Source: Oscillospiraceae bacterium (lineage in GTDB: Bacteria > Bacillota > Clostridia > Oscillospirales > CAG-272). From it: a stretch of DNA of 64,000 nucleotides. The position numbers and the translations under genes were made by a program. The stretch covers positions 1 to 64,000 of the forward strand of contig SVTY01000009.1 of the NCBI GenBank assembly GCA_015063535.1, in the 5' to 3' direction. Below, piece after piece: positions 1 to 4,771 of this stretch. A model generated the notes under the pieces. That model searched no databases, was not told where the DNA came from, and saw nothing but the letters and a program-made list of their open reading frames with translations. Positions within the stretch are counted from its first letter, which is position 1, and each line of letters opens with the position of its first letter.

Positions 1-1418
1 TTGCGCTTACCGACGTCGAGAGCGGGAACGAGTATAATACGCTCGTCGTAGCGCTCCTCTCCGTTGACGCAAAGGTAAGAGAGGCAGAGGAAGCGATCGC
101 GAACGCGAACGCGGCTACAAGCGCCGCCAACGCCGCGGCAAGCAGAGCGAACGGCGCCGCAGATCTCGCCGACGAAAAAGCCGCCCTCGCCGATGAAAAG
201 GCAACGGAAGCGAATAACGTCAATATTTCCGCAAGAGCGACCGAAACCGGAGCGGATATTACCGTAACGGATAGATACGGCGTAGAAACTACGGTACATA
301 TCGACACGCTTACCGCCGTCAAAACGTGGGAGGACGTGAGAAACGCCGTTCGCCTCGGTATCGCCCCGAGCCTCTTCCCGGTTGGATATGAGTTCACCGT
401 TGAGAGGGAAGGAAGCGGATCTCATACGTTCGTCGTCAGAGGACACGACCACCACGTAGCCGCGAATAAGAAGCTCACGCACACAATGACGCTCGAAATG
501 AAGCACGTTTACGGCACCTCAAGCACACCCTACAAGGGATTTGTATTTGACGCTACCGAGGCGCTCTATTACGCAGAGACGGAGCTCCCGGCGGGAACGT
601 ATAACTTTACGCTTCTCTCGGGCTACGACGCGACCTACGGAGGCGGAAAAACGCTCTCCTTCACGCTCGCGAATCCCGTCCCGGCGGGCGGCGTAATTAT
701 GTTCCCGTGGGGCTATCAAAAGCAAAGCACAGAAACGAAAATCAGCACTTACGCGAGCAACACCGCGACAACCGCGATCGAGAGCGTTTCTGTAACCGAG
801 GGAGCTTCCGGTACCAACCTCGGAACCGCCGACGGAAATACGCCGAATATGAACCATTCCCACAGAATCCGCTACGGATCGAACAACTACGCGCAGAGCG
901 CCCTTCGTCAATGGCTTAATTCCGACGCCGCTCGCGGTGCCGTATGGACGCCTCAAACGGTATTCGATCGCCCTCCGTCTTGGCATACCGGAACGGACGC
1001 GGCATACGCCGGTTTTTTGAATGGACTTGAGGCGGAGTTCCTCGCGGTCGTTCAGCCCGCGGTCGTTCCTTGCCGCACTAACTCGATCTTTGAGGTAAAC
1101 AGCCTCGACGGTACAGAGTTCGTTATCAATCAGACGTACGATCTCGAGGATAAATTTTTCCTCTTGTCGCGTCCCGAGATATACGGCACGTGGGACAGCA
1201 CTTCCTATAAGGACGGCGAAAGGTTGGAGTTCTACGAAGGTTTGACGGACACGGAGAGAATCAAGTACGACTCCGCGGGTTCCGCGCGGTACTGTTGGCT
1301 TCGCTCGCCGCACCCCTCGAACGCCGGCAACGAGCGCTACGTGGCCACCGACGGCACGTTGAGCAACTACCACGCGGGCCACACTTACGGAGCCGCCCCC
1401 GCTTGTATAATCGCATAA
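1..1418 (+). CDS. DGR target protein, phage receptor-binding type (5' end outside window)
   Basis: The frame beginning at base 3 is open from the window edge to the TAA at 1416-1418, so the gene starts upstream; the GTG at 336 is internal. The first ~110 visible residues are alanine-rich and coiled-coil-like (repeats such as AADLADEKAALADEKA), as in tail fibres. A mixed beta region follows, and the C-terminus contains YCWLRSP and GAAPACIIA around the variable repeat at 1278-1400. Known DGR targets display such residues on a C-type-lectin-like fold to bind ligands; that fold is inferred here. Ten Asn codons of the template are replaced in this protein, by His, Gly, Tyr, Ala and Ser. It sits directly upstream of the avd-like gene, TR and RT. 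Likely role: virion adhesin whose binding surface is diversified. Confidence 0.85.
   Translation, partial: ALTDVESGNEYNTLVVALLSVDAKVREAEEAIANANAATSAANAAASRANGAADLADEKAALADEKATEANNVNISARATETGADITVTDRYGVETTVHIDTLTAVKTWEDVRNAVRLGIAPSLFPVGYEFTVEREGSGSHTFVVRGHDHHVAANKKLTHTMTLEMKHVYGTSSTPYKGFVFDATEALYYAETELPAGTYNFTLLSGYDATYGGGKTLSFTLANPVPAGGVIMFPWGYQKQSTETKISTYASNTATTAIESVSVTEGASGTNLGTADGNTPNMNHSHRIRYGSNNYAQSALRQWLNSDAARGAVWTPQTVFDRPPSWHTGTDAAYAGFLNGLEAEFLAVVQPAVVPCRTNSIFEVNSLDGTEFVINQTYDLEDKFFLLSRPEIYGTWDSTSYKDGERLEFYEGLTDTERIKYDSAGSARYCWLRSPHPSNAGNERYVATDGTLSNYHAGHTYGAAPACIIA
1278..1400 (+). repeat. DGR variable repeat (VR)
   Basis: This 123-base segment aligns without gaps to 1897-2019 (constant offset of 619). 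There are 13 mismatches, at 1311, 1326, 1327, 1338, 1344, 1345, 1363, 1368, 1371, 1377, 1378, 1380 and 1386. Each one lies opposite an adenine in the template (6 to G, 4 to C, 3 to T). The other 20 template adenines and all non-adenine bases are identical. The segment ends in the GC-rich run GGAGCCGCCCCC, the expected place for the initiation-of-mutagenic-homing (IMH) element. It lies 18 bases before the target stop codon. Confidence 0.95.
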
Positions 1419-1428
1419 TCTCAAGATC

Positions 1429-1444
1429 CGCCTCGGTAGAGGCG
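1429..1444 (+). other. Hairpin just downstream of VR (DGR homing hairpin candidate)
   Basis: CGCCTC and GAGGCG form a perfect 6-bp stem closed by the tetraloop GGTA. The hairpin begins 10 bases after the target stop and 28 bases after the VR. In Bordetella phage BPP-1 a short GC-rich hairpin/cruciform with a tetraloop just after the VR is needed for efficient mutagenic homing. Position and shape match; function is inferred. Confidence 0.6.
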
Positions 1445-1461
1445 AGAGAAAGGAAAAGAAT

Positions 1462-1875
1462 ATGAGCGTAAGAAAAGGCGACAGGGGCGAAGGAAAATTA
1501 CAAGTTCTCAACAAAGCCCGGGAATTGAAGAAATACTCCCTCGGGATCGTCAGATCCGAAAAGCATTTTCCGAAATCTACTCGGTGGCTCTACGCCTCAC
1601 CGATCGCCGAAGAGATACGCGAGGCTTGTATTTGCATAAGGCACGCTAACTCGGTTTACGTCTCGAGCGAGGACGAATACCGATACCGCCGTATGGAGCA
1701 AACGAAAGCACACGCGCACCTCGACGCTCTTCTCGATTTGATAGACGACGCCTACGACGCCGGATATATCGAAGGGCGTCAAGCGGAATATTGGACGGGC
1801 TTAATATTACAGACCGACGATCTCCTCAAGGCGTGGATAAAGTCAGATCGGGAAAAATATCAAGAAAACAAATAA
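1462..1875 (+). CDS. avd: Avd-like DGR accessory variability determinant
   Basis: A 137-residue basic, helical protein lying between the target gene and the TR, which is the standard position of Avd. Avd proteins are about 120-130 residues, form a pentameric four-helix-bundle barrel, bind RNA and the reverse transcriptase, and are needed for cDNA synthesis from the TR. Visible support is size, basic N-terminus (MSVRKGDRGEGKL), helix-rich composition (QTKAHAHLDALLDLIDDAYD) and position. AAAGGAAAAG precedes the ATG. The stop lies 21 bases before the TR, so the TR RNA is probably transcribed together with this gene. Confidence 0.8.
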   Translation: MSVRKGDRGEGKLQVLNKARELKKYSLGIVRSEKHFPKSTRWLYASPIAEEIREACICIRHANSVYVSSEDEYRYRRMEQTKAHAHLDALLDLIDDAYDAGYIEGRQAEYWTGLILQTDDLLKAWIKSDREKYQENK

Positions 1876-1896
1876 AGGGCGGTTGCTACTCTATTC

Positions 1897-2019
1897 GGTT
1901 CCGCGCGGTACTGTTGGCTTCGCTCGCCGAACCCCTCGAACGCCAACAACGAGCGCAACGTGAACACCGACGGCACGTTGAACAACAACAACGCGAACAA
2001 CACTAACGGAGCCGCCCCC
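1897..2019 (+). repeat. DGR template repeat (TR)
   Basis: A non-coding, adenine-rich copy of the VR in the avd-RT gap. It has 33 adenines over 123 bases, many in AAC triplets such as AACAACAACAACGCG. Read in the VR frame it encodes 13 Asn, of which 10 differ in the VR. AAC-rich templates are typical of DGRs because adenine mutagenesis of AAC reaches many amino acids without making stop codons. At its 3' end the TR has six Cs (2015-2020) and then GATTGT, while the VR has five Cs and then GCTTGT. This is the expected IMH*/IMH difference that keeps TR as donor and VR as recipient. Confidence 0.95.
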
Positions 2020-2112
2020 CGATTGTGAGAATTGCCAGTATCAAGTAGTCAAAAGACCAAAGCAGAGCACCTCACACAAGGAGCGACCGTCCTATCTCCA
2101 AAGGAGGGAAAA

Positions 2113-3213
2113 ATGCGGGCGACGAAGGTATCTTGCGAGATAGCCCTTTTAACAGCGCCCGCGGCAATTATGCCATACGAGAAAGTTATTTCATTCGACG
2201 CGCTATATCGCGGCTTGAAAATGAGCTGTAAAAATATACGGTGGAAAGATAGCACCGTAGGCTATGAAGGTAACGCCCTCAAAAACACGTATAGGCTCCG
2301 TCAGAGCTTGCTCAAAGGAACCTATAAAATTGACCGCTACCAACATTTCACCATTTACGAGCCGAAAAAGCGCGAGATCGTAGCTACCCGAATCAAAGAT
2401 CGTCAATTTCAAAGGGCGCTTTGCGATAACGGTTTCTATGACGAAATCACAAAATCCTTTATCGCCGATAATTGCGCTTGTATGAGAGGAAGAGGAGTAG
2501 ACTATACCCTCGACCGAATTACAGCGCACCTCCGGCGATACTACGCAAAGAACGGCGCCTCGGGGTGGGTGCTGAAATGCGATATTCACCATTATTTCCC
2601 GAGCATACGGCACGACGTAGCAAAGGCGGCTATTTGTAAGCGGGTTAAAGACCGCGAAATAGCTTTCCGAGCTTGCGAGATAGTGGATAGCTTCGGAGAT
2701 ATAGGGATCGGGCTCGGTTCTCAAGTATCGCAACTCGTAGCGCTTGCGGTTCTCGACGATCTCGATCACTATATCAAAGAGCGCCTCCGTGTAAAGCATT
2801 ACGTGCGGTATATGGACGATTTTGTGCTTATACATCACGACAAAGAATTTTTGAAACGCTGTAAAACGGAGATCGAGGAGTTTCTTTCCCGGATAGGGTT
2901 AGAGCTCAACAAAAAGACCTCTCTTTACCCCTTGCGGCAAGGCGTAAATATGCTTCAATGGAAATTTATCGTAACGGAATCCGGAAGGATCCTTCGTAAA
3001 ATGAGCAAAAAGAAGCAAGGAAAGCAACGTCGAAAGCTCAAGAAGCTTTACGCAAAAGAGCAAAGCGGCGAATACGCGCAAGGAACGGCGAGAGAATCTC
3101 TTACCTCGTGGATCGCAAACGCCGCCCGCGGCGATACGTACCACGAACAAAGAAAAATGATAAAATTCTATAACGATATGGAGGAAAGCTATAATGAAAA
3201 ACGACAACCATAA
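2113..3213 (+). CDS. DGR-type reverse transcriptase
   Basis: A 366-residue reverse transcriptase that would copy the TR RNA with adenine-specific errors. Visible motifs are the palm motif KCDIHHYFPSI (Asp157), LGSQVSQL (about 201-208) and the catalytic YMDD (233-236). The SQ in the fourth motif is a mark of DGR reverse transcriptases; group II intron enzymes usually have SP. The C-terminus is basic (SKKKQGKQRRKLKKLY), fitting the thumb/RNA-binding end. The ATG at 2113 is chosen because AAGGAGG lies 5 bases upstream; the frame is open further upstream to a TTG at 2032. The stretch 2027-2112 between TR and RT matches the spacer that primes cDNA synthesis in BPP-1. The gene overlaps the next by 20 bases. 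Confidence 0.93.
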   Translation: MRATKVSCEIALLTAPAAIMPYEKVISFDALYRGLKMSCKNIRWKDSTVGYEGNALKNTYRLRQSLLKGTYKIDRYQHFTIYEPKKREIVATRIKDRQFQRALCDNGFYDEITKSFIADNCACMRGRGVDYTLDRITAHLRRYYAKNGASGWVLKCDIHHYFPSIRHDVAKAAICKRVKDREIAFRACEIVDSFGDIGIGLGSQVSQLVALAVLDDLDHYIKERLRVKHYVRYMDDFVLIHHDKEFLKRCKTEIEEFLSRIGLELNKKTSLYPLRQGVNMLQWKFIVTESGRILRKMSKKKQGKQRRKLKKLYAKEQSGEYAQGTARESLTSWIANAARGDTYHEQRKMIKFYNDMEESYNEKRQP

Positions 3214-3571
3214 GCGCCTCGCGAGGATCGAGGCTATGACAAACGCGCAGAGAGCCGAGCTAATGGAGACGCTCAAGGCGGGCTATGAAAAGGCTTGTGA
3301 GGAGAGAGACGAGGAAGGCGCGGCGGAGTTCGCTCGCAAAATCAGAAATAAGCTCCTCGAGGAGAGCGATAATCAAATGATTTTCGACCGAATGGGGCTC
3401 GACGTTCCGAACGGTAGCACGTTCGGCGCTTGGCTCGGTTTCCTTCAAACGCTCGGAAGGATTCTCCTCGGATCGTGGGCTTTGTATAGAAAAGCCCTCC
3501 GAGATCTTCCCGAACAAGAGGGATTCCCCTTCGATGTTAAATTCCCCGAAAAACCGAACGAGGAGGAGTAA
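3194..3571 (+). CDS. Phage tail assembly chaperone-like protein
   Basis: A 125-residue acidic, helical protein overlapping the end of the RT gene, with GGAGG 9 bases before its ATG. It contains ARKIRNKLLEESD near the middle and YRKALRDLPEQEGFPF at the C-terminus. The pattern R-LL--SD ... YR-ALRD-P--EGFP is typical of small phage proteins annotated as tail fibre or tail assembly chaperones. This supports the DGR target being a tail adhesin. No catalytic residues are seen. Confidence 0.65.
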   Translation: MKNDNHKRLARIEAMTNAQRAELMETLKAGYEKACEERDEEGAAEFARKIRNKLLEESDNQMIFDRMGLDVPNGSTFGAWLGFLQTLGRILLGSWALYRKALRDLPEQEGFPFDVKFPEKPNEEE

Positions 3572-3574
3572 AAA

Positions 3575-3757
3575 TTGTCTTTATTGGAAATAATCGAGCG
3601 CCTTTGCGAAATTGCTCGCTTGCAAGCCGAGATCATAAGCAAGCAAGCGGAAGAAATCGAGCAAGCAAAGATCGCGGATTCTGTATCGGAGGAGCTTCGC
3701 GAAATGCGAAGCCGCGCCGAACGCGAGCTCGCTACCGTTTTCAAGGAGTACAATTAA
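3575..3757 (+). CDS. Small phage coiled-coil protein
   Basis: A 60-residue protein starting with TTG; AGGAGG lies 8 bases upstream and the start is 3 bases after the preceding stop. It is almost entirely amphipathic helix rich in Glu, Arg and Ala (IISKQAEEIEQAKIADSVSEEL). Many phages carry such a peptide between the tail chaperone and the holin. Family and function are not recognised. Confidence 0.55.
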   Translation: MSLLEIIERLCEIARLQAEIISKQAEEIEQAKIADSVSEELREMRSRAERELATVFKEYN

Positions 3758-3762
3758 AGAGT

Positions 3763-4113
3763 ATGCTTGAAAAAATTTTACCGCCTATTCTTTCGATCCT
3801 CTTCGGTTGGCTCGCTTCGTTTCTGACGATCGCAAAATCCAAAAGCAAAGAGCGAAAAGACAGAGACCGAGCCGTAGAGGACGGGCTCGAAGCCCTCCTC
3901 CGCGCCGAGATCATACGGCAATACGAAAAGTACAGCGAGAGGGGTTTTTGCCCTATCTACGCAAAAGAAGCGCTCAAACGAGAATACGGCTCGTATCACG
4001 CGCTCGGAGGGAACGACGTCGCGACGGAGCTCTACCATAAGATTTTAGAGCTTCCCACGGATCCACCGCGCGACCACGATCCCACAGAATACAAAAAACA
4101 TCATAACGAATAA
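3763..4113 (+). CDS. Phage membrane-anchored protein next to holin
   Basis: A 116-residue protein with one N-terminal hydrophobic segment (PPILSILFGWLASFLTI) followed by a charged region. AAGGAG precedes the ATG. The C-terminal part (YEKYSERGFCPIYAKEA, YHALGGNDVATELY) resembles a conserved small protein found beside holins in Firmicutes phages. It may be part of the lysis module, but its role is unknown. The same frame is open upstream to 3604; the ATG at 3763 is preferred for its ribosome site and hydrophobic start. Confidence 0.6.
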   Translation: MLEKILPPILSILFGWLASFLTIAKSKSKERKDRDRAVEDGLEALLRAEIIRQYEKYSERGFCPIYAKEALKREYGSYHALGGNDVATELYHKILELPTDPPRDHDPTEYKKHHNE

Positions 4114-4128
4114 AAAGGAGATTTTCAA

Positions 4129-4515
4129 ATGAAAGAGTTTTTTATGAGTAATTGGGCGAGCCTTCTCGTGATCCTCGTCTTTGTAGCTACCCTCGTAATT
4201 CTTGCTATCAGAGGCAAGAAGGATATTGTAGCGAAGATCCTCTACGCGCTCGTTACCGAGGCGGAGAAGATCTACGGCGGCGGTACGGGATCCGTAAAGT
4301 TCGCCTACGTCGTCGAGAAAGCCTATTCCTATCTCCCGGCGATCCTCAAGGTATTTATTACATACGAACGACTCAAGACAATGATCGAGGACGCCCTCGC
4401 CGCCGCTAAAATCAAGTGGGCGGAAGAGGCGGGGATCTCCGATTATTTGAAAGAGCCCGAGCTCCTCGTAGGTGAGCCTGTCAACGTGGACGCCGCCTCC
4501 GATAACGAAAAGTAA
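4129..4515 (+). CDS. Phage holin, LL-H family-like
   Basis: A 128-residue protein with one strong N-terminal membrane segment (WASLLVILVFVATLVILAI) followed by a helical soluble part (LVTEAEKIYGGGTGSVKFAYVVEKAY). This layout and the AEKIYGGGTG-KF segment match LL-H-type holins (Phage_holin_6_1). Holins open the inner membrane so that the lysin reaches the wall. AAAAAGGAG precedes the ATG. It is the last phage gene before the terminator at 4528; no endolysin gene is visible between it and the tRNA. Confidence 0.7.
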   Translation: MKEFFMSNWASLLVILVFVATLVILAIRGKKDIVAKILYALVTEAEKIYGGGTGSVKFAYVVEKAYSYLPAILKVFITYERLKTMIEDALAAAKIKWAEEAGISDYLKEPELLVGEPVNVDAASDNEK

Positions 4516-4566: not shown

Positions 4567-4599
4567 ATTTGGAATCCATTTGGAATCTATTTGGAATTT
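4567..4599. repeat. Three 11-bp direct repeats at the prophage edge
   Basis: ATTTGGAAT recurs three times at an exact 11-bp period (4567, 4578, 4589), roughly one helical turn, between the phage terminator and the tRNA-Ala terminator. Iterated short repeats next to a phage/tRNA junction could be recombinase or excisionase arm sites; this is inference only. Confidence 0.6.
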
Positions 4600-4695: not shown

Positions 4696-4771
4696 TGGTG
4701 GAGCATAGGGGATTCGAACCCCTGACCCCAACACTGCCAGTGTTGTGCGCTCCCAACTGCGCTAATGCCCC
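4696..4771 (-). tRNA. tRNA-Ala (GGC)
   Basis: The 76-base reverse strand folds into a full cloverleaf with encoded CCA. The acceptor stem GGGGCAT pairs with ATGCTCC (one G-U), the anticodon loop is CTGGCAG and the T arm is GGGTTCGAATCCC. Its 3' end faces the prophage, the usual layout when a phage has integrated into a tRNA 3' end. Confidence 0.95.

Follow-up and report, generated by a model that had tools for sequence, protein, structure and literature searches.

A diversity-generating retroelement with a DUF6273 target at the end of a probable prophage in an Oscillospiraceae genome

Can a phage rewrite the end of one of its own genes from a template carried alongside it, and if so, which protein does it vary? 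This question is raised by the first 3.2 kb of a 64,000-nt stretch of DNA from an Oscillospiraceae bacterium (contig SVTY01000009.1, positions 1-64,000, forward strand; herein referred to as the window, in which all coordinates are given). Window positions 1-3213 almost certainly constitute a diversity-generating retroelement (DGR) of a temperate phage, in which a target gene with a 3′ variable repeat (VR), avd, a template repeat (TR) and a reverse transcriptase (RT) gene lie on the plus strand in the order known from the DGR of Bordetella phage BPP-1 (mtd-avd-TR-brt; NC_005357), which also shares its RT branch and TR/VR design (table 1). A preliminary description of this DNA had proposed a complete DGR with its four parts in the classical order; each part is indeed found at that place and in that order, and all are complete bar the target gene, inside which the contig begins (window base 1) and whose 5′ end is hence cut. 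The identification as a DGR, also made in that description, is directly supported by this anatomy, by adenine-only differences between TR and VR, by an RT of the DGR clade, by Avd, by an end resembling the initiation of mutagenic homing (IMH) site, by a structured spacer RNA and a hairpin that are conserved among relatives, and by the VRs of relatives, which vary while the TR stays nearly constant.

The TR and VR, the first family returned by a repeat search, span 123 bases and are 89% identical. All 13 of their mismatches fall at TR adenines, which occupy 33 of the 123 positions (hypergeometric P = 4.7e-9), in keeping with the adenine-specific diversification that the preliminary description ascribed to DGRs. 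Read in the frame of the target, the TR holds 13 AAC (Asn) codons, 10 of which are altered in the VR to His, Gly, Tyr, Ala or Ser codons, with no stops; none of the seven TR adenines outside AAC codons is altered. Directly past the ungapped match, GATTGT in the TR faces GCTTGT in the VR. Because the window and all 17 close relatives inspected have this A/C difference, it is taken as a fixed IMH/IMH* mark rather than diversified sequence; one relative, L021, has one additional change beside it.

The RT matches RVT_1 (E = 4.2e-12) and the PHROG RT profile (E = 2.9e-105). A tree of 40 rows places the window RT together with BPP-1 Brt and 29 other DGR RTs in a single branch (support 100/99), with three group II and six retron-type RTs outside it, as the DGR affiliation proposed earlier predicts; the window RT is 31% identical to the BPP-1 enzyme over 67% of the query. 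Among solved chains, the window RT is closest to 8ub7, a reverse transcriptase (E = 2e-26) that we take to be the BPP-1 enzyme, followed by a maturase RT (E = 5e-10), and LGSQVSQ is presumably the DGR form of that RT motif. ATG 2170 is the most likely start of the RT. Starts at TTG 2032 or ATG 2113 were ruled out: an ATG corresponding to 2170 is common to the relatives examined (identities as low as 66%), several of these carry an in-frame stop three to four codons upstream of it, and the AAGGAGG upstream of 2113 falls within a hairpin of the RT-2 alignment discussed below. The Avd protein is 84% identical to that of L083, a relative with a full-length target; its NCBIfam match (E = 7.5e-5, 23 bits) lies below the cut-off of 80, and Pfam gives no family above cut-off.

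Table 1. Features of the DGR and of the adjoining prophage end
Feature	Position	Strand	Basis or remark
DGR target gene, 471 aa, 5′ end cut by contig start	3..1418	+	open frame; phrog_19280
DUF6273 domain containing the VR, predicted C-type-lectin-like	855..1415	+	profile and fold match to 9qa6
VR	1278..1400	+	GC-rich 3′ end 1389-1400
Hairpin CGCCTC-GGTA-GAGGCG	1429..1444	+	between target stop and avd
avd, 137 aa	1462..1875	+	phrog_3206 'Avd protein of DGR', E 1.1e-29
TR	1897..2019	+	sole other match in own genome is the VR
Structured spacer RNA (Sp)	2020..2169	+	covariation on 16 sequences; Rfam RT-2 match
DGR RT, 347 aa, motifs LGSQVSQ and YMDD	2170..3213	+	RVT_1, PHROG RT, tree
Tail fibre assembly chaperone	3194..3571	+	Pfam PF16778, E 2.2e-12; phage context
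Holin-like protein	4129..4515	+	PF09682, 21 bits, below cut-off 24.9; phrog_15303, E 1.1e-24, function unknown
tRNA-Ala(GGC), probable prophage boundary	4696..4771	-	DNA similarity of window to viral contig L004 stops at 4570

Between the TR and the RT lies a structured spacer RNA, whose main stems pair 2024-2029 with 2071-2076, 2079-2082 with 2090-2093, 2116-2121 with 2156-2161 and 2124-2134 with 2137-2149. In the alignment of 16 sequences (15 distinct; 32 pairs in six helices), 98.5% of 479 cells are paired, whereas sliding the partners lowers this to 40-51%, and 12 of the 32 pairs have changed on both sides, a count that none of 500 shuffles reaches. Like the RT-2 RNA of Rfam (RF03077), which it overlaps, the spacer stands straight after the TR and ahead of the RT; the window differs in scoring 27.7 bits, below the gathering score of 40, which one of the 17 relatives tried passes (L037, 50.3 bits). 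BPP-1 likewise has a structured spacer and a hairpin, according to the accessible parts of PMC3240598 and PMC12875486, the latter of which describe a spacer that recruits the RT-Avd complex and contains the adenine that primes the cDNA.

The loop of the hairpin after the VR fits the GRNA consensus of phage DGR hairpins, which, in the accessible portion of the BPP-1 work (PMC3240598), have GC-rich stems of 7-10 bp and are required for efficient homing. Hairpins are present in 16 of 16 close relatives inspected (7-bp stem in 11, 6-bp stem in 5), with loops of GGTA or GATA and differing stem letters; more distant relatives carry other stems, many with four-base loops. A scan for stems of at least 7 bp found them after the VR at 33 of 112 loci, after the TR at 9, and at 1 in one shuffle of each; the scan overlooks 6-bp stems, that of the window included, and 17 sequences were therefore re-inspected.

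Variation of the VR at positions opposite TR adenines alone, beside a constant TR, had been named as the check on the element. The window and 147 loci were scanned, 148 sequences in total, and in 112 an adenine-biased TR/VR pair passed the filter used. An all-against-all comparison of these 112 yielded 46 rows, of which 32 reach an identity of at least 97%; rows with a locus in common are not independent of one another. The VR differs in 14 of these 32 comparisons, at 234 positions of which 212 lie opposite TR adenines, and the TR differs at 15 in all. L046 and L048, compared over 9 kb, differ at just 14 positions, every one of them opposite a TR adenine. Within the clade of the window, L007 and L008 (RT 79% identical to that of the window) have 19 VR differences, 18 opposite adenines, with an unchanged TR, and L021 and L026 have 18, all opposite adenines. 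The variation is hence found among relatives, mostly at TR adenines; it is missing between the window and its near-copies, L003 and L031, which have the same VR.

Several points weigh against our reading and have to be set beside this evidence. The two near-copies keep the VR identical to that of the window at one difference in 4506 bases (L003) and at 25 differences in 2715 positions (L031), and the VR is also identical in 18 of the 32 close comparisons. The C tract at the homing site has six C in the window TR and five in the VR, and the six-C TR is shared only by the same two near-copies. The hairpin stem of the window, at 6 bp, is shorter than the reported range; further pair types in the spacer fold are no more numerous than expected from shuffles, 69 of 500 of which reach the same count, and its helix 2 (two pairs) is weak, with 83% paired; and most of the VR in the predicted target model has a pLDDT of about 40-48.

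One alternative, which we consider rather unlikely, is that the locus descends from a DGR but has since fallen silent or been damaged, with old VR differences and a copy that no longer homes. It would fit the VR shared by both near-copies, the extra C in the TR at the IMH* tract of this lineage alone, and the existence of decayed relatives (L017, L018). On the other side, the RT and avd frames are open, the spacer RNA and hairpin are retained, and an unbroken 1.5-kb block is common to L031 and the window, so that recent shared ancestry can account for the same VR. None of the 25 differences from L031 falls within 1158-2660 (1.8e-9 if evenly spread), a block that covers the VR, avd, TR, spacer and almost half the RT; because the differences avoid it, this cassette may have been shared recently between the two lineages, which would make the identical VR in L031 explicable. 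Scanning the viral collection for sequences that fit 95 bases of the TR, with adenines left free, returned only L003 and L031. We keep to the reading of a phage DGR and regard recent activity of this copy as unproven, because the VR is identical in both near-copies.

Two relatives carry a decayed DGR. In L017 (3494-3857), a deletion has left the initial half of avd fused to mid-TR, so that half of avd and part of the TR are lost while the RT frame is open, and the TR/VR spacing is 285 as against about 615; L018 (2000-2363) is 99.7% identical to L017 and has the same short spacing.

Which protein would such a DGR vary? The target matches phrog_19280 (E = 7.9e-157, profile positions 177-623 of 623), and uncut targets are 564-635 aa long in 10 close relatives and 378-628 aa in 8 more distant ones. 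The VR starts 46 codons before the end of the gene, in a C-terminal DUF6273 domain that matches 9qa6, its only clear solved match, by both profile and predicted model; from these matches the variable domain appears to be C-type-lectin-like. As far as the accessible text of the two sources goes, 9qa6 is the N-terminal domain of the Thomasclavelia ramosa IgA peptidase, with a C-type-lectin-like core (PMC12237041), and this domain is named DUF6273 in PMC12402451; it is of the same family by profile and fold and differs in being part of a bacterial enzyme. In neither the window target nor that of L083 does Pfam report an Ig domain, and the variable domain is C-terminal. The N-terminus of the full-length L083 target is a BppU_N baseplate domain, which, together with the tail fibre assembly gene downstream, lends support to the tail adhesin of the preliminary description and suggests that the target is probably a baseplate protein. 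We found no report of BppU together with a DGR in the open-access literature searched.

By analogy with known systems, the phage would thereby vary its host-binding surface. It is improbable, in our view, that the DGR instead varies a protein that sticks to mucus or animal cells, as might be supposed from the sole clear solved match being to a domain at the N-terminus of a gut enzyme that cleaves IgA, and from the intestinal or immune cell binding proposed for tentaclins (accessible portion of PMC10743442): BppU_N in L083 and a tail fibre assembly gene after the RT are the usual setting of host recognition, and in the IgA enzyme the matching domain is, in the part of its description available, dispensable for cleavage. 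That the enzyme is another bacterial RT (of a group II intron, retron or defence system) beside a chance or duplicated repeat is virtually excluded, since the NCBIfam group II, DRT and retron models that it matches score far below their cut-offs and PADLOC offers generic RT and DRT models, whereas the RT tree and the adenine pattern of TR and VR refute a group II intron or retron RT and Avd argues the same way. Profile searches, suggested earlier for both families, match the RT to RVT_1 and the PHROG RT profile and the target to phrog_19280 and DUF6273.

For a DGR that varies a host-binding protein, we propose that an RNA covering the 3′ end of avd, the TR and the structured spacer would be copied by the RT with Avd, that the RT would misincorporate opposite template adenines, and that the cDNA, directed by the hairpin beyond the VR and by the GC-rich IMH end, would take the place of the VR at the 3′ end of the target; because the TR would be retained, the process could be repeated. 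Priming, homing and receptor binding are modelled here on BPP-1, from whose mechanism we saw no departure. The varied AAC codons would sit in the C-terminal lectin-like DUF6273 domain of a probable baseplate protein, and since they do, the likely effect of a VR change would be an altered surface bound by the phage.

The closing stem of the spacer ends 8 bases upstream of the shared RT start codon, and its ribosome-binding-like AAGGAG motifs (2078 and 2101) lie far upstream, inside hairpins, with none adjoining ATG 2170. We put forward as speculation, and as quite doubtful, that the spacer RNA in this phage clade also controls the RT, one RNA choosing between template and enzyme mRNA; were this so, folding into the template form would make a transcript a poor mRNA for the RT.

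DUF6273 targets of DGRs have already been published, and the locus is a further case of a well-known system. The accessible text of PMC11792537 places the VR at the C-terminus of a DUF6273 domain in the DGRs of Faecalibacterium phages Lelie, CP11, Roos and Pioen, a likeness that extends to the prophage setting; their RTs are 36% (Lelie) and 29% (Pioen) identical to that of the window, and the N-terminal domain of the Pioen target is described there as resembling a Listeria phage tail fibre protein, unlike the BppU_N of L083. Compared with BPP-1, the window has a DUF6273 target rather than Mtd and a hairpin stem of 6 bp rather than 8. The locus adds a well-preserved DGR whose near-identical relatives, several from Clostridia genomes and some apparently from ruminant guts, serve as a natural experiment. 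Added here are the spacer RNA of the clade with its covariation, the baseplate domain in a relative, and the link from DUF6273, a 'domain of unknown function' in the accessible part of PMC11792537, to a solved C-type-lectin-like domain, which agrees with the rule that DGRs diversify lectin folds.

Over its first 4.5 kb, the window resembles the right end of a prophage, with two small genes between the tail fibre assembly gene and the holin-like gene. The prophage setting given in the preliminary description holds in so far as phage genes beside the DGR and the tRNA-Ala, the probable boundary, fit a prophage end; the left end lies outside the contig, and a search for an att repeat found no second copy of the 3′ part of the tRNA-Ala, which leaves the att site unproven. 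For the att site of BPP-1, identity to the 3′ region of a tRNA is listed, a likeness to this end. The terminase family PF03354 has no match in the assembly (84% complete), other terminase families not having been sought, and in the same assembly no further match to the TR, RVT_1 or DUF6273 was found beyond the DGR locus. The region beside the prophage end is matched in 13 of 30 genomes of the genus (tRNA piece 88-100%, neighbouring gene 67-70%).

A few relatives depart from the simple arrangement of one TR, one VR and one RT. In a genome of the same genus, two RTs of the window RT's family (L162, L165) share a contig at a distance of about 3 kb, with a TR/VR pair (24 adenine mismatches, 1 other) near the first and none found in the 4 kb around the second. 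The TR of L010 (3169-3911) is identical to that of L013, yet between this TR and the L010 VR there are 12 mismatches at non-adenine positions; against the TR of L011, the same VR has 20 adenine mismatches and no other, and the target and TR of L010 seem to have recombined, or the contig is chimeric. L014 (2462-2592) has a VR with a few extra bases relative to its TR, splitting the match in two, possibly through a length change during homing. Finally, in L030, two VRs (1652-1764 and 2979-3091) are served by a single TR (3705-3817), each with 17 adenine-only differences.

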